From positions 1 through 33,621 of the forward strand of contig JACDHS010000053.1 of the NCBI GenBank assembly GCA_013820875.1: a stretch of 33,621 bases of DNA, in the 5' to 3' direction. The notes beneath the pieces are model-generated. The model searched no databases, was not told where the DNA came from, and saw nothing but the letters and a program-made list of their open reading frames with translations. Below, piece by piece: positions 9,641 through 18,542 of the stretch. The DNA comes from Verrucomicrobiota bacterium (GTDB lineage Bacteria > Verrucomicrobiota > Verrucomicrobiia > Limisphaerales > JACDHS01). The position numbers and the translations under genes were made by a program. Within the stretch, counting starts at the first letter, position 1. The number at the start of each line of letters is the position of its first letter.

Positions 9641-9856
9641 TTATTTTTCATCATCAGCCTGGTCGGGATCTGTGCCGGGGGGAAGGTCTTCGAATTGCAG
9701 GAAGTGTTCGGGCCGCAGCGGTTCTGAAACTTTGTTCTCTTCACTGAACCATTTACCAAGATCCAACAGTTTGCAGCGGTGCGAACAGAATGGTCCATAT
9801 TTTCCCTCGAACCAATTCCCCGCTTTCTTGCAAGTTGGACACTTCGCCGGTTTCAT
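9641..9856 (-). CDS. yacG: DNA gyrase inhibitor YacG (zinc-finger protein)
   Basis: A 71-residue protein with the YacG zinc knuckle: C6-P-T-C9 and C24-S-H-R-C28 in the setting KAGNWFEGKYGPFCSHRCK, then LDLGKWFSEE, the conserved segment of the family. Length fits (usually about 60-70). In E. coli YacG binds GyrB and blocks DNA binding by gyrase. The acidic tail (DPDQADDEK) is typical. It lies alone between the MFS transporter (88 nt downstream) and the siroheme-decarboxylase-like gene, with the TTTACCG array about 100-180 nt ahead of its start. coaE, its frequent neighbour in proteobacteria, is absent. No good Shine-Dalgarno is visible. Confidence 0.92.
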   Translation of the reverse strand: MKPAKCPTCKKAGNWFEGKYGPFCSHRCKLLDLGKWFSEENKVSEPLRPEHFLQFEDLPPGTDPDQADDEK

Positions 9857-9951: not shown

Positions 9952-10037
9952 TTTACCGTTTTTTACCGTTTTTTACCGCTCTTTGTTCTTTACCGTTTGT
10001 TTACCATTTCTTTACCGGTTTTTACCGATCTTTACCG
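9952..10037. repeat. Helically spaced array of eight TTTACCG heptamers
   Basis: TTTACCG (one copy TTTACCA) begins at 9952, 9962, 9972, 9989, 10000, 10011, 10021 and 10031. The steps are 10, 10, 17, 11, 11, 10 and 10 bp, so most copies lie on one face of the helix. The rest of 9857-10080 holds no gene I can support. The array sits between the 3' end of the Lrp/AsnC-like gene and the start of yacG, both on the minus strand, and reads CGGTAAA in that direction. It could be a repeated protein-binding site, phased T-tracts bending the DNA, or simply an expanded satellite. Confidence 0.9.
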
Positions 10038-10080
10038 GCAACCCAACGGGTGTCTGCGGTAAGCGATTCATTCTGCTTTA

Positions 10081-11211
10081 CTATTCGCGCATGTCATCAG
10101 GATTCAAACCCGCGCTCGCACACCATTCGCGATAGGCAAAGGGTGAGATTTCGGATGGCTTGATTTCGCTGCGCCCGCCCCAGAAAACATTCGTGTAGCT
10201 GACCGGAATTCCGCAGTTCTTCAAATGCTCGTCAATGGCGGCTTTGTGAGCGAGCACCATCGGTTTCTCCATTCCATGAGCAACACCCATGACATTGACG
10301 TCATGAAACTCCGGCCCCCCTTCGCGCCAGTAAGCATGGGTCATGATGTAATGACGTCCGACTTCCCTGCCCGCTTCGATTTCCCGCCCCGGCGGCACGG
10401 CCCAATGAAACAAGGCATTGAACCGCGTGACGCGATCCCCGTCTTTCAAGGTTTTAACATGTTCCAGGAAGGTGGAAAAGCGGCCGACGATATTTCGGCG
10501 ATTCAGGTCTTCAGCAACTTCGATGAATGTTTCCAATGGAACATCGGCTTCCGCTGCGCGAGCGCGCCAGATATCCGGCACGATTTCTTCCGACTTAAAC
10601 TCGCGTTTCAATACCGTCAGGATACGCCATTCGAGTTCATTCAAAGTGGCAATGGAAACCTCGGTAACATTCGCCGGCACTTCAGCCTTCGCTCCCGGTT
10701 CCATGCCGCGACGACGAATATGGCCCACGCCAAGCGCAAACAAACGCTTAGCCGGCATGAGACGGTAATGCACAGCACCGGTTTGTTGCATCAGGAACTC
10801 GCAATGTTTCCGCAATGAATAGCCCTGTGGAACCTTGAGCGTTGTCCAGAGTTTATAATTCGAACCGGGGGTTACTGCATCCGTTGAACGAGTGACCACA
10901 TGTCCGGAAAAAGGATCCTGCTGGAACATGTAATCGAACGCAGCATCCAACTTCTCCTGCGGCACTTCCCACGCGACCAGGGAACCTTGAGCGAGATTGG
11001 TAGCCAGCAACGTCTGGCGCACCCGGCGGATCGTTCCCCCTTCCAGCATGGCCCGAATGCGCTCGATGACTACCGGGAGTTCAACTCCCGATTGCCGTGA
11101 AATCTCCCCCAACGGATCGCGTTGGAATCCCTGGATCTTATCTTCGGAGACAGCGAGAATTTTCTGATTGATCGGGTCACTTATTTCAAACGGCACACTG
11201 ATCGAATTCAT
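10081..11211 (-). CDS. Two-domain Lrp/AsnC-fold protein, siroheme decarboxylase-like (AhbA/B, NirDL type)
   Basis: 376 residues made of two tandem Lrp/AsnC-type halves, each with a helix-turn-helix-like region followed by an alpha/beta domain. In the first half VVTRSTDAV...NYKLWTTLKVP matches the position of the EYNLWFTL segment in siroheme decarboxylases. In the second, MTHAYWRE around H292 and DVNVMGVAHG resemble the THxYxR...HG motif of AhbB/NirL. Those enzymes remove two acetate side chains from siroheme on the way to heme or heme d1. A fused NirDL-like arrangement fits the length. No other heme or denitrification gene is nearby, so it may instead be a haem-sensing regulator or a repurposed homologue. 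The start at 11209-11211 follows the stop of the giant protease by 56 nt, with a weak AGGT ahead of the ATG. Confidence 0.65.
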   Translation of the reverse strand: MNSISVPFEISDPINQKILAVSEDKIQGFQRDPLGEISRQSGVELPVVIERIRAMLEGGTIRRVRQTLLATNLAQGSLVAWEVPQEKLDAAFDYMFQQDPFSGHVVTRSTDAVTPGSNYKLWTTLKVPQGYSLRKHCEFLMQQTGAVHYRLMPAKRLFALGVGHIRRRGMEPGAKAEVPANVTEVSIATLNELEWRILTVLKREFKSEEIVPDIWRARAAEADVPLETFIEVAEDLNRRNIVGRFSTFLEHVKTLKDGDRVTRFNALFHWAVPPGREIEAGREVGRHYIMTHAYWREGGPEFHDVNVMGVAHGMEKPMVLAHKAAIDEHLKNCGIPVSYTNVFWGGRSEIKPSEISPFAYREWCASAGLNPDDMRE

Positions 11212-11267: not shown

Positions 11268-14200
11268 TTACGGCTCTGAAGGTGGCGGCACCTGAATCAC
11301 ACGATAGAACTGCATTGATGCACCTTCTATTGGTGGTGAAACATAGTCAGATACTGAGCCAACAGCAGTGATTACTTCCTCAGTGACCCAAGTAATCAGA
11401 TCAGTTGAAACCTGAATCTCATAAGTTTGACCAGGCACACTGTTCCACTGGAACTTGACGGAACCATCCTCAATCACTGGTCCGCTGATGATCTGCAACG
11501 GCTGACCACTCAGGAGAACACCGTTGGGCGATGAAACGACGGCGTGGATCGTGAAATCCAGATCAAATGCTTCATTGTTCGGAACGGCCAAATACCAGGT
11601 TCCATTGAGCTCAGGCAAGCTGCCGTTGGTGTTAATGACAATCTGTTCCGGACTGATTCCAGCATTGCTGCTGATCCAGTCGTAATTATCGAGTGTCGGT
11701 AAATCGCCAAACCGCACAAGGAGATCCCCGTCGCCCGAGAGGTTGAATAGTTCAAACAACACTGAAGAATTCGTCTGATCAATCACGAAACTATAGAAGT
11801 TGGTGATCGCTGTTCCAGTTCCAGCGATGCCATTGGTTGGCGCCCCGGAGATTAACGGAATGATGTTTATTGGAGGCTGCTGTATTTCGGGCGAAACAGA
11901 GGCCTGGATCGTGAAATCCACATCGAACGCTTCGTTGTTCACCACCACGAGATACCAGGTCCCATTCAAGTCGGGCGGGAACATGCCACCATCCACAAGA
12001 ATTTCTTCCGGAAAAGTCCCCTCATCAGGGTTGGCGATATCGTGGTTCGCACGAGTGGGGAAAGATCCCCGACTTACGAGCAAATCAACGTCTCCGGTGA
12101 GATCAAAGATTTCGAACAATGCCGATGAATTGGTCTGATCAATGACAAAACGGTAATAGTTGGTCAGCAACGTTCCTGTATATGAAATACCATTCACCGG
12201 AACACCTGGTGTAAGGTCAATGATATTGAAATCGCTTTCGAAGTACTCGGTAGCCTTCACTGAGTAATCCACAGGCACGGGTTCAAGGTTGAGAACACCA
12301 ATGTACCAGGTTCCCGGCCCCAGATTGACCGGCGTTGAACTTGATGAGACGACAATCAATTCATCCGAGTTCCCAATGTTCTGACTACCATAATGGTAAC
12401 TACTGTAACTGGGCACCGGCGCTCCATATCTAATGTAGAGATCCGCGTTTCCAGTCAGGTTCAGCAATTCAAACGTAGCCATGAGGGCTCCGGGTGAAAC
12501 GTTAAACTGGAAGTACTGCATCGCATTTCCAGAAGGAGCGTTCGTGTTAAATGCGATCGCATTCGTCAGTGCTGGAATACCGGCAACAAAGTTGTCCACA
12601 AAATCGAATTTAACGAGCACCGTGAAGTTATTGCTGTCGGTAGGATTTACGTTTCGAACTCCTAAATAATAGCGCTGCCCCGGCTGCAGTAATGGGGCAC
12701 TCGTTGTATCGAGAGTTCGACTGGGGGTCGGAGTTTGCAGAAGACTGAAATCTCCGAACCCAAGGCCGGTTGGTGGGGTGCTTTGGTTAAACAGCAACTC
12801 AAGTTGCCCACCCGTCAGACTGGTCAAAAAGTTAGTGGCGTGGGCTGCCGAAACCGGAACATCTACGACGAAATAACGGATCTCATTTGAAACTACAGTG
12901 CCCGTGGCTGTAACACCGTTCAGCAACAACTGTGGCGTTGGCGCTGTGGTCGTATCGCCCAGAATGGTTAACTGCAACTGCCAACTAATGATGTTAGCGT
13001 TGATCTCGGCACCGAGGCGATTATCCCAAACTTCGAGGATCCAGTCGCCTTTGGCAGGTTCTCCCGTCAACAGGCGAAGAGATTCTTCAGGGTAGAAATA
13101 ATTACCTGAAACCCTCTGTATGAGAGTCATCCCATCAATCCAAACACCATTCGTGAGCGCCGCAATATCTATGGTAAAATCTGTGCCTTCCGGTTGGAAG
13201 AAAGTCCTGAAGGTATTCCAATTCGGTTCCGGCGTCAGAGTAGTAAGCACCCCATCTATGATGATTGTTGCCCGTGCAGGTGCATCGGTGGGATCGCTTG
13301 AGTCCGCAGGTGTTCTGTAACTAAATTTTAGTTCATAGGAGGTTCCTGGTCCATTCGTATAAGAACGGGTAATCGCGCCCAACGGTTCATTCGCCCCACC
13401 AAGCAAGTTATTCAGGGATAGAACGTTTGCCCCATCCACGGCCAAAGGCGTTGTCACCACGCTGGCGTTAGGCGAAGTGACAGTCCAGTCTTCAACGACA
13501 CTTCCCGGAGGGACCTCCCCTGGGGGAATACCTTCAAAGCTGTTTTCAGATCGGGTAGTGACAAAAGCTCCCAAATTGGTTGCACCAAAAGGAGGTAGAG
13601 CAAATTTGATCAATTCGGGGAATAGATTCGTGTTTTCAGTAAACACAATATGACTCACCGGTGAAAAAATCGCCTCCTCGAGCAAGAAGAAGTTGTCGAT
13701 GAGCATGTTGGCAGTCAATCCGTCTATTTTCAACGAGGTGCCCACTCCAGCACCAACAAATGGAATGCTGTTCATTTGCCAACCGGCTGTTCCGGAATGC
13801 ACTACCGGAGCCAAGCTCCCTACCTGAACTCGAGCGGTGGGAGGAAACGTATTTGTTGGGCTCGCACGATAGATATAATTCAAGGTGTATTGCCGGCCTG
13901 GTTGAGTCGGCAAAGTCCTTGAGATTGAACCGCTCCTAAGTTCGAGGTATTTATCTCCTTGCTGCGCAATTGCGTTGTCACTGGTGACGGTAACCTGGTT
14001 GCTAACAACACTCCATCCTTGAAATGTATTGGGGGCGGAGACGTTACCCGTAAAGCTTCCTTCGAACTTACTTATATTCAGATTAACATCCTGATCGAAG
14101 GTCGTTGAATCGCCTCCCAATCCTGTTGTGCTTAAACCACCTCGATTTTCGAAGAGCAAAATACGTGTTCCACTTGGGCTCACGAGATGCAAAGACAGAT

Positions 14201-17200
14201 CTGACACGCGCGGATGGTCTATCCGAACGCCGACCTGGACATCGCCGACCAGGCCAGTATTGGTCACAGTAATTACCGAGTTGGTGTAGGCATCATCAAT
14301 GAGGGGTGCTCCATTTGTCATGCCATAGGTCTTGTAGGTTACGTCCGACAGGTCCAATCCAATTCGAGTGAACCAGCATACCGGATCAATCACGTTCGCC
14401 CCGGGATTTCGATACATGATGTAATAAACACCCGGGGTGAGAGGTGGCAGGTCTCCAGTTCCAATGCGTAAAGCTCCGCCTGGCGCGTTAAAGATCGCTT
14501 TGTAATCGTAGTCCGCAATCGTGGGCAACGCTTCTCTGCGCACGTAAACTTCAATCGTCCCTCCGCCAGTGAAAGAGACATTAACGGTCAGGTTCGTGGC
14601 AAAGTTTGGAACAGTGACGGCATCGTACCTTTGATTATTAGCAAAAATCGGTTTACAAACGGGTTTGCGAATAATTTCAGACCCACCATTGCTTGAGTCA
14701 TCCTCCGGCTGAGGTTCAATGTAGAAACTGAAGTTCAAGACCTGACCAGTGTGAGTGAGTGCATTGTCAGAAACCGTAAAAAACCACAAACCACGAGTCT
14801 TTTCGCCAACGAAATCTGCCAGACTACCCGGCCCATCAGATGGATGCGCATAAGGGGTATCTCCTTCGTTCAAATCATTATAAATATTCTCGATAATGCC
14901 GCTCGATTGCCCACCAGGAAACCCATGATTATTCAAGATAACGGATTTGCCGATTCCCTGTTTGTAAAGCACTCCGACAAGATCTCCAAATAGTTGATGG
15001 TCAAATTCGTTGGTAACAATAATTCTGCGAATTGTGCGATCAAACGGCACAATGCCAAAAACATCGGTATGGCCTGGAGCATCGGGCGAACCGTCTTTGA
15101 TTTCTGCTGGTATGGGAAAGAAAAGGGGAACTACGTTTCCATTCTCATCGCTGGCAAAAGGTAGTTCGCTTGATATCGCGAGAATACTAAACTCTGACGC
15201 CCGCTGGTCTTCAGATTTCACCCCGATGTAATAAACCTGCCCAGGCGTCTGCGGCTCGTCTGTAAGGATGATTAATTCGTTTCCGCCACGTTCCACCGAT
15301 TTGTGTGCCAAATCAATAGCTTCAATATCTAAATTCAACAACGCCGGATCTGTTGAAACATATAGATCAATATCAGATTCCAAATTGCGCAGGCTCGGAA
15401 CCTGGTAATCCCTGACATTAATACCAGACAAATTGATTCCTCCAAAGACTGCAAATGCAACGTTCGAATAACCGAAAGTGTTGGTGAAGGCATAAAATAA
15501 CCACTGATTCAAAGTTCCGTTTGTTTGCACCTCATACGGGTTGTTGGCCCCCACGCGCTGCTCCATCATTATAGAGAATGAATATCCTTCACCTGCTGCG
15601 CCGCCGTTCAGGTTGGTCATTGACGTTACGTTCGCCTGAATATCGGCGGTGATAACCAGATTACTGAGAGTAATCGCATTTGTAATGGTGAGATCCCCGA
15701 TGGAAACAACGAGAGCGTAGTCTTGCTTGATTCCGTTTGTTTGCGCCGTCACAGCGTTCACATTGACTCGTCGTCCGATGATACTCACCGCATAGCGCGC
15801 ATTCAGAGGACCATTCAGGTAAACGTTTTCGACATTGTTAACAATGTCCCTCTCTGAATTAATGACAACAGGAGCGTTCGTGCCGTCGACAAAGAAATTA
15901 ATATCTGAATAATCCCCCCCGCCCGGAAAATTGTTACCGAAATACACGTCGCCCGTGTCCAGATTCGTCACTACCAGATCCAGATCATTGACCAACTTAA
16001 TACCGACGGCCGGGTTGCCTGGAGGATCGGTCCAAACAAGCGAAAAACGGAGGGCAGACTCTTGCGCGTCCTCAGAGAGCAGAATTTCCCGGGTGTGTTG
16101 CTCATCGGTAGCCAATGCATTTGTCTCCGATTGATCAAAAAACATGATCCCCGCTGTATTCGTTCCGCCACCGGGAAGCATCCTTCCGAGATTCGGTAAC
16201 CCCCAGCCCTGATAGTTGATATTGTTTTTGATATCCAGATCGTAGAATGGCCCTGCTGATCGAGCGCTGTTGATCAGCAAAGCTTTCATTAGTGCCGGGC
16301 TTGCGTTGCTCACTGCCGGAGATATGCGCGTCTCGAGATATTCCTGCAATAAAGCCAACATGCCGGATACCACTGGTGCGGCCATACTGGTGCCCGTTTC
16401 ATACCGGTAGTGAGGCGGCGGGCCGTTAGGGCCGATGAGATCATTATTCATCCCCTCCAGCACCTGCATTGAATCGCCCAGATTATTGGTCGTAAATAAA
16501 ACCGTTCGAATATCGAACCTAACGGTCGAAGAACTTGTATTTACGAAATCATAAAACCATTCAACGCCACTGCTGAAACCTGCATCACTGTCCTGCAGAT
16601 ACAGCGCATTCGTTCCAGAAAAATTAGCGGCATCGGTTGAAGGATTAAGAGTGAAATTGGTGTAGAGTTGTAAGGATGGGAATGGCACAGCCGAGTGTCC
16701 ATTTGGCAATGCTTCTATCCAGAATTCCACCGTATTGTTCGGAACGAAGAGTGCATAGCTGTTTGTCTGACCGGCACCAATTACCAGATTTGTAAATACG
16801 CGCCCGGAAATGTTTGTGGGATTGTAATATGAATTGGTATCCCACTGCCCCGAACGGGTGGAGACAACGAATGTTCCTGGCGCGACCACATCCGGTTTAA
16901 ATCGCCCAAAGTCTCCCTCGATGCCGATACCGACGTTGCCACGACCAGAAAACCGGGCCACCTGATTCGATGAATCAGTTAGCGGGAGGTATTCAGAATT
17001 GGTCGTCACCGTGCCAAACGAATTCGTCCGAGTAATCCGGTTGGTAATTCCTCGTGGAGATTCTATCGCCCCAACTGTTATTACGTTTTTTGCCGTCGCA
17101 GGCGAGGCAACTCTGCCGGGAAAGCCACCTGAGCCTCCACTATTACCGCCGCCACCATTCCCTGCTGCGAACACGAACAAAACAGGTTGCGATCCCGTCA

Positions 17201-18542
17201 CGCCAGGGATTGCGTCACGAACTGCGGCATCAAAACTCGCCGATGCCGAGTTGTATCCAAATGCCCCGATATAGTGCCAACTATTATTGGAGATAAGCGC
17301 GTTAGTCCTTCCGAATAGAAATAGATTAGTACGTGCAGCAAACTCCTGCATTTCCCAATCGAAAAACTCGAACAGATCCTGCGACAGAATGCTCGCTCCA
17401 TCGGCCATTCCGCGGAATTGAGCACCCACTTCTGAACCAATTGCATTGGTAGCTGGAAAAGGTCCATTTGCACCGCTGCTGGCAATGATTCCAGCCACAT
17501 GAGTTCCATGTCCATCCACATCTGTGGCCAGAGTGCGCGCACTAACATGCACACGATTCGTCAAATCCGGATGGCTCACGTCCACGCCGGTATCATTAAC
17601 GTTCACTAAGACATTCGTTCCCGTAAGCCCGAAGGTATTGAACAGATTGCTGGAGTTAGCCGAAACGCCAACACGCACGCGCGCCAAGTCGTTCGCCGTG
17701 ACCCGGTCCGTATGAAACTCAATATTCTGTACCAAAGGGAGTTGGGCCAGTGCAACCAACGCCTCACTGGGAACTTGAATGATCAACTCCGGACCGAAAG
17801 GAGAACGTTCTTTTCCAATGATTCGAGCATTCACAGCCTGCAACGCTTCCATTACAAGTTGTTCTCCTCCGGGAAAAAGGGTGACCCGCAAAGCAGCTCC
17901 AGCTTCAAATGGCTTATTCTCAATCGCCCGTTCCAGTACTGCTGTATCCAGTTTAAAATAGGGTTCGTAAGGCAACACCGATTGCGTCTGAGGCAGAGAT
18001 GCCAATTTCCGCGCGCCGGCGGCTGCAACTCGCACCAGATAGGCATTATTTGGAACGTAAGAAATAATCTCCGCATCGGCCGCCCGCAGTTGAGCGCGAA
18101 ATGCATCGTTTAGTTTCTGACGAGACTGGATAACGTAGCTGCCTGGATCTTCTGTGGCGCGAAGTTCTCGCGGAATGGCAAGTGGCTGGTCGGAACTTGT
18201 GTCAATCAACGCATTGCGAAGCAGCAATCCTTTCTCGTTTCTGCCGAGTTGGCTGGCAGTCTGTTCAGTATTGTTGAGGCGATAACGCAAGGGGTTCTCG
18301 ACATCAACAGCTTTGGCTCGAAATTCTTCCAGTGAAGTCGATGCAAGGAGCAATACAGGCGCAATCACCGGCAGCGCCGAGGATTGGTCCCTCGGAACAT
18401 CAACGTTGTTGGTTGAGGTGCTTCCCTCTTCCCCTGAGGCTCGTTGGCGTCCAGTCTGGCGATCGCCCAATTTCCAAAAGGCTATCGCCCCGATAAAACA
18501 AACCGCGCTGATTAATGCCCAGGTTTTAAATTTTAGCCGCAT
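11268..18542 (-). CDS. Giant secreted subtilisin-like (S8) protease with P domains and PPC repeats
   Basis: 2424 residues. An N-terminal hydrophobic segment (about 8-24) directs export, then a propeptide (about 60-290). The S8 catalytic domain (about 300-760) has D317 in VNDTGVD, H345 in GHGTHVAG, N462 in AAGNGG and S719 in GTSMAAP, so it should be active. A beta-sandwich typical of KP-43-like subtilases follows (about 800-960, TDPPGNPA...NDLDLVV). A first P-like domain lies at about 1145-1277, a second P domain begins near 1395, is interrupted by about 320 residues of galactose-binding-like beta modules (about 1491-1811) and resumes at YFYPEESLRLLTGE. Four bacterial pre-peptidase C-terminal-like domains come next (about 1875-2337) and a final fibronectin-like module ends in FYRV. 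The gene follows the cassette A gene by 62 nt on the same strand, with AGGA 7 nt before the ATG, so co-expression with the pseudopilus genes is plausible. Confidence 0.9.
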   Translation of the reverse strand: MRLKFKTWALISAVCFIGAIAFWKLGDRQTGRQRASGEEGSTSTNNVDVPRDQSSALPVIAPVLLLASTSLEEFRAKAVDVENPLRYRLNNTEQTASQLGRNEKGLLLRNALIDTSSDQPLAIPRELRATEDPGSYVIQSRQKLNDAFRAQLRAADAEIISYVPNNAYLVRVAAAGARKLASLPQTQSVLPYEPYFKLDTAVLERAIENKPFEAGAALRVTLFPGGEQLVMEALQAVNARIIGKERSPFGPELIIQVPSEALVALAQLPLVQNIEFHTDRVTANDLARVRVGVSANSSNLFNTFGLTGTNVLVNVNDTGVDVSHPDLTNRVHVSARTLATDVDGHGTHVAGIIASSGANGPFPATNAIGSEVGAQFRGMADGASILSQDLFEFFDWEMQEFAARTNLFLFGRTNALISNNSWHYIGAFGYNSASASFDAAVRDAIPGVTGSQPVLFVFAAGNGGGGNSGGSGGFPGRVASPATAKNVITVGAIESPRGITNRITRTNSFGTVTTNSEYLPLTDSSNQVARFSGRGNVGIGIEGDFGRFKPDVVAPGTFVVSTRSGQWDTNSYYNPTNISGRVFTNLVIGAGQTNSYALFVPNNTVEFWIEALPNGHSAVPFPSLQLYTNFTLNPSTDAANFSGTNALYLQDSDAGFSSGVEWFYDFVNTSSSTVRFDIRTVLFTTNNLGDSMQVLEGMNNDLIGPNGPPPHYRYETGTSMAAPVVSGMLALLQEYLETRISPAVSNASPALMKALLINSARSAGPFYDLDIKNNINYQGWGLPNLGRMLPGGGTNTAGIMFFDQSETNALATDEQHTREILLSEDAQESALRFSLVWTDPPGNPAVGIKLVNDLDLVVTNLDTGDVYFGNNFPGGGDYSDINFFVDGTNAPVVINSERDIVNNVENVYLNGPLNARYAVSIIGRRVNVNAVTAQTNGIKQDYALVVSIGDLTITNAITLSNLVITADIQANVTSMTNLNGGAAGEGYSFSIMMEQRVGANNPYEVQTNGTLNQWLFYAFTNTFGYSNVAFAVFGGINLSGINVRDYQVPSLRNLESDIDLYVSTDPALLNLDIEAIDLAHKSVERGGNELIILTDEPQTPGQVYYIGVKSEDQRASEFSILAISSELPFASDENGNVVPLFFPIPAEIKDGSPDAPGHTDVFGIVPFDRTIRRIIVTNEFDHQLFGDLVGVLYKQGIGKSVILNNHGFPGGQSSGIIENIYNDLNEGDTPYAHPSDGPGSLADFVGEKTRGLWFFTVSDNALTHTGQVLNFSFYIEPQPEDDSSNGGSEIIRKPVCKPIFANNQRYDAVTVPNFATNLTVNVSFTGGGTIEVYVRREALPTIADYDYKAIFNAPGGALRIGTGDLPPLTPGVYYIMYRNPGANVIDPVCWFTRIGLDLSDVTYKTYGMTNGAPLIDDAYTNSVITVTNTGLVGDVQVGVRIDHPRVSDLSLHLVSPSGTRILLFENRGGLSTTGLGGDSTTFDQDVNLNISKFEGSFTGNVSAPNTFQGWSVVSNQVTVTSDNAIAQQGDKYLELRSGSISRTLPTQPGRQYTLNYIYRASPTNTFPPTARVQVGSLAPVVHSGTAGWQMNSIPFVGAGVGTSLKIDGLTANMLIDNFFLLEEAIFSPVSHIVFTENTNLFPELIKFALPPFGATNLGAFVTTRSENSFEGIPPGEVPPGSVVEDWTVTSPNASVVTTPLAVDGANVLSLNNLLGGANEPLGAITRSYTNGPGTSYELKFSYRTPADSSDPTDAPARATIIIDGVLTTLTPEPNWNTFRTFFQPEGTDFTIDIAALTNGVWIDGMTLIQRVSGNYFYPEESLRLLTGEPAKGDWILEVWDNRLGAEINANIISWQLQLTILGDTTTAPTPQLLLNGVTATGTVVSNEIRYFVVDVPVSAAHATNFLTSLTGGQLELLFNQSTPPTGLGFGDFSLLQTPTPSRTLDTTSAPLLQPGQRYYLGVRNVNPTDSNNFTVLVKFDFVDNFVAGIPALTNAIAFNTNAPSGNAMQYFQFNVSPGALMATFELLNLTGNADLYIRYGAPVPSYSSYHYGSQNIGNSDELIVVSSSSTPVNLGPGTWYIGVLNLEPVPVDYSVKATEYFESDFNIIDLTPGVPVNGISYTGTLLTNYYRFVIDQTNSSALFEIFDLTGDVDLLVSRGSFPTRANHDIANPDEGTFPEEILVDGGMFPPDLNGTWYLVVVNNEAFDVDFTIQASVSPEIQQPPINIIPLISGAPTNGIAGTGTAITNFYSFVIDQTNSSVLFELFNLSGDGDLLVRFGDLPTLDNYDWISSNAGISPEQIVINTNGSLPELNGTWYLAVPNNEAFDLDFTIHAVVSSPNGVLLSGQPLQIISGPVIEDGSVKFQWNSVPGQTYEIQVSTDLITWVTEEVITAVGSVSDYVSPPIEGASMQFYRVIQVPPPSEP

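Follow-up and report, generated by a model that had tools for sequence, protein, structure and literature searches.

The repeat array that precedes yacG in the window, the whole 33,621-nucleotide stretch of Limisphaerales DNA analyzed here, is best explained, with moderate confidence, as a stand-alone (orphan) instance of a candidate recognition site that comprises several units and belongs to this order's family of small helix-turn-helix (HTH) cassettes. Judging from sequence comparisons, the HTH proteins encoded by these cassettes probably recognize the arrays adjacent to their genes. A previously unexplained repeat is now tied to an undescribed, multi-copy family of putative DNA-binding proteins of ∼136 aa that lie beside their own candidate site, and literature searches on GGTAAA, Verrucomicrobia repeats, and the small terminase found no account of such arrays or cassettes.

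The array upstream of yacG

The array occupies positions 9952–10037 on the minus strand and comprises eight units that read CGGTAAA along the flanking genes, and TTTACCG on the plus strand. Exact TTTACCG units start at 9952, 9962, 9972, 9989, 10011, 10021, and 10031, while the unit starting at 10000 is a TTTACCA variant (TGGTAAA at 10000–10006), so the array consists of seven copies plus one rather than the eight identical heptamers described in an initial sequence-only reading, which had its position and spacing exactly right. The unit-to-unit steps of 10, 10, 17, 11, 11, 10, and 10 bp divide the array into a three-unit block with exact 10-bp steps (9952–9978, minus strand) and, 17 bp from it, a five-unit block with steps of 11, 11, 10, and 10 bp (9989–10037, minus strand). 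The expectation that such an arrangement is unlikely to arise by chance is borne out by the 12 occurrences of TTTACCG in the window, seven of them within 86 bp, against 3.3 expected and a maximum of 8 among 100 shuffles. TRF picks up the array with a period of 10 and a score of 84. No other array of its kind exists in the 5.7-Mb genome, where TTTACC-N3..6-TTTACC matches at seven places, six of which are inside the array described here. RNA folding of the sense strand is modestly favorable (z of −2.6), promoter and terminator scans returned one weak site and no terminator, an Rfam search gave no match near the gathering score, and the array DNA had zero matches to phage.

Two minus-strand genes flank the array, with yacG (9641–9856; PF03884, E 4e-17) downstream and a gene encoding a 376-aa AsnC_trans_reg2 protein (10081–11211; PF17805, E 9e-17) upstream. 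Read in the sense direction, the array begins ∼44 bp past the stop of the latter gene and ends 95 bp ahead of the yacG start. This interval had been thought to contain no other feature, which is nearly right, except that 26 bp ahead of the first direct unit there is a unit in partly inverted form, which reads CTTACCG in the sense direction (plus-strand coordinates 10057–10063). It resembles the inverted copy present in several HTH cassettes, a likeness that may be due to chance.

The suggestion that the array is relevant to yacG as the gene for a gyrase inhibitor did not survive comparison with relatives, and a yacG or gyrase link is rejected. yacG was located in 24 further genomes of the order, and at none of these loci (0/24) are two units in register; arrays elsewhere in the order neighbor unrelated genes, and by this sequence comparison the proximity to yacG is not conserved. 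Any effect on yacG would stem from the immediately upstream location of the array, and would be confined to the lineage of the window.

Elsewhere in the window, positions 257–582 hold a tandem repeat with a 42-bp unit, 7.8 copies, and 91% matches, while the minus strand at 11268–18542 encodes a predicted 2424-aa protein whose N-terminal part, by eye, is subtilisin-type protease-like and whose C-terminal part contains repeated stretches. A further 87-bp stretch at 175–261 is 87.5% identical to positions 957–1043 of contig C176 of the same genome, just past its HTH gene, and constitutes a dispersed repeat.

Arrays and helix-turn-helix cassettes in the Limisphaerales

Among 320 genomes of the order Limisphaerales (Verrucomicrobia subdivision 3), 19 have three copies of TTTACC at 10–11 bp, at 83 places in all, against 3 for a reversed-pattern control. 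Elsewhere in the phylum, 2 of 386 genomes have the pattern, which is not above the control there. Individual genomes contain up to 31 array places, the multi-place genomes having 31, 8, 7, and 7. Many arrays consist of a three-unit block, often with AAAAC or AAC just before it on the TTTACC strand, and the window array shares this type of edge and, like them, contains three or more GGTAAA-type units spaced by 10/11 bp. The core hexamer and the 10/11-bp step are constant across genomes of different families while the spacers vary, and the conserved part is GGTAAA including the GG, extending beyond the A run alone.

A simple satellite expansion, which the sequence-only reading would have accepted had the arrays of relatives been placed at random and lacked a conserved spacing, is rejected because spacing and design are conserved across many genomes even though the places differ. 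The same recurrence of helical-turn spacing with changing spacers fits the proposal of cooperative binding by a protein along one helix face. Stand-alone arrays occur between co-directional genes above chance, and in 21 of 27 cases (21:6) GGTAAA points the same way as the upstream gene, and in 29 of 40 (29:11) the same way as the downstream gene, counts that are approximate because the gene calls use a simple codon-composition rule. Many of these stand-alone arrays are located in repeat-rich intergenic DNA, some of them close to contig ends. In one genome (G039; loci L133, L033, and L038), a second repeated motif like CTAGGACAAAACTATGACATTTCTAGGCCAC is present near the TTTACC arrays.

Many arrays directly follow a gene encoding a ∼136-aa HTH protein, with the array starting at most ∼100 bp past the HTH stop in many cassettes of different genomes. 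This protein contains an N-terminal HTH and a conserved C-terminal IPxxE...W motif, and its Pfam matches, HTH_23 and HTH_Tnp_1, are both sub-threshold. It was found in 35 of the 320 genomes, in up to 13 copies, several of which are fragmentary. Among array genomes, 14 of 19 have it, compared with 21 of 301 among the others (p=2e-11, with kinship ignored), or, when counted by genus, 8 of 12 array genera and 16 of 106 other genera; the five array genomes with no HTH match each have a single array. A second small open reading frame (ORF) often follows the array, and in at least one cassette (L077) it begins within the last array unit (ATG GTA AAG). Two stand-alone arrays are still preceded by the C-terminal tail of an HTH protein, making cassette decay one likely source of orphans.

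Wherever the surroundings of a cassette were read, they held ordinary host genes. A phage origin is rejected, as the HTH protein had zero matches among 50,697 phage records, the array DNA has no phage match, and a viral relative of the second ORF was searched for and not found. The HTH protein matches one distant viral contig and gives two partial plasmid hits, which cover its N-terminal part only. An alternative second ORF (ORF3) matches the PHROG terminase-small-subunit family phrog_6299 (4e-12), and for small-terminase homology the HTH protein itself gives a weak match to phrog_4102 (E 0.0046). An AlphaFold model of the HTH protein, built with five sequences in the input (pLDDT 79), predicts a three-helix HTH, a long helix, a further helix, and a disordered tail. 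A sequence search of solved structures returned nothing and Foldseek gave no significant match to the model, while VIA-align yielded weak matches to several phage small terminases at Z 5.0–6.4, mixed with unrelated helical proteins. The predicted likeness of the HTH protein to small terminases is thus a hint rather than membership.

Paralogues of the HTH protein with other recognition helices carry arrays with other cores at 11-bp steps, including GGTGCA, GGTGTA, GGTCAA, GACCGG, and GCACAA, and several of the 11-bp cassettes have an inverted copy 23–28 bp ahead of the first direct unit. A KPTL[IV] helix accompanies GGTAAA in 25 of 32 cassettes, compared with 2 of 23 for other helices (p=3e-7, among related cassettes). 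On a tree built with the helix columns excluded, there are ∼4 supported independent pairs, of which ∼2 agree and almost none oppose, a covariation that is not significant. Because the cassettes are related and independent pairs on the tree are few, the pairing of helix and core seen in these sequences is suggestive only. Some of the HTH cassettes examined showed no clear array. More direct-repeat arrays at 10–11 bp, with cores TAGTGGGAGGG, TGTCATCTCC, and GTTAGCGCCA, are located upstream of several HTH genes (e.g., L253 in G246, L258 in G242, and L255 in G248).

Interpretations of the window array

No HTH gene is present directly upstream of the window array, as is also the case for most dispersed copies, and a scan of the window found no remnant of an HTH gene or of the second ORF. 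The window genome encodes a single HTH protein of the family, on another contig and with the helix CKRTLITW, and has no protein of the GGTAAA-associated KPT type. The cassette of this sole HTH protein carries a GGTGCA array with 11-bp steps (C176:1351–1377), and the array at yacG is therefore an orphan. It is probably either a leftover or read by another protein.

The main rivals to the HTH reading are an MraZ-type box and a decayed dispersed repeat, both of which we regard as unlikely, and to a similar degree. Under the first, the array would be a site of MraZ, a ring-shaped cell-division regulator that binds 7-nt units repeating every 10 bp, and mraZ would not be the only gene to carry such a site. 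Published MraZ sites comprise four repeats of 7 nt separated by 3-nt spacers (PMC7761207), a form with which the arrays found at mraZ in Bacteroidota agree: a pattern scan of named genomes returned many loci of these bacteria (among L063–L175) where mraZ is immediately preceded by three copies of GTGGTAAA at 10 bp, in clear MraZ-box form, from which it follows that GGTAAA arrays can occupy operator positions. The window genome, moreover, has mraZ yet lacks the KPT-type HTH protein. However, its mraZ is on contig C136, with a promoter bearing five GTGG units at 10–11 bp, and GTGG appears in none of the window-array units; the array is not upstream of mraZ/dcw, and arrays elsewhere in the order go with the HTH gene and not with mraZ.

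Were the array instead a decayed intergenic repeat, enlarged through slippage from three units to eight and devoid of present function, its single occurrence in the genome, its non-conserved place, and the many stand-alone copies in repeat-rich intergenic DNA would be readily understood, but such a relic accords poorly with a core hexamer and step kept across families despite variable spacers, and with the biased orientation of arrays relative to adjacent genes. Curved DNA, in which a bend produced by phased A/T runs would affect transcription or topology independently of a specific protein, is very improbable. The curvature prediction, run with a wedge model, only partly upholds this earlier idea: predicted curvature is modestly raised, with an end-to-contour ratio of 0.87 that ranks in the lowest 0.6% of window segments and is reached by 1.7% of shuffles, but the bend angle is matched or exceeded by 13% of shuffles, and the conservation of GGTAAA with its GG is not that of an A run alone.

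If the array is, as we favor, an orphan copy of the HTH-cassette site, several HTH protein molecules would be expected to sit side by side on successive units along one helix face, with three or more units permitting cooperative binding. In its home cassette, the site may control the following small ORF or mark the DNA for the HTH protein, and stand-alone copies could derive from decayed or partial cassettes or have spread in trans. A bolder version, which we hold to be less likely still than either main rival, is that the very small two-gene cassettes of the order are kin to phage small terminases and that their helix and array change together to new specificities; the scattered stand-alone arrays would then mark places in the chromosome that serve packaging, segregation, or regulation, and the array at yacG would be one that has lost its protein. 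Paralogues differing in recognition helix and array core offer a natural set from which to work out a recognition code, and a single purified protein with a handful of short DNA fragments would suffice to test the matter.

Comparison with known repeat-binding systems

PhoB/OmpR-type Pho boxes are tandem head-to-tail direct repeats of 11 bp. The arrays share with them head-to-tail units at 11 bp, a comparison made on spacing only, and no Pho-regulon context or response regulator was noticed at the array sites. The pac sites of phage small terminases (e.g., SPP1/SF6) likewise consist of direct repeats beside a gene encoding an HTH protein that contains long helices, and the cassettes further resemble these systems through the phrog_6299 match of ORF3 and the weak fold similarity of the HTH protein. 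In contrast to pac sites, the cassettes are located amid host genes, the regions read contain neither a large terminase nor prophage genes, and the HTH protein of the cassettes is absent from the phage records searched. The repeats bound by MraZ at mraZ/dcw are also short and direct, with 10-bp steps and, in Bacteroidota, a core almost identical to that of the window array; the window array, however, is away from mraZ, whose own site in this genome has a GTGG core, and the arrays of the order are dispersed, many of them following an HTH gene.
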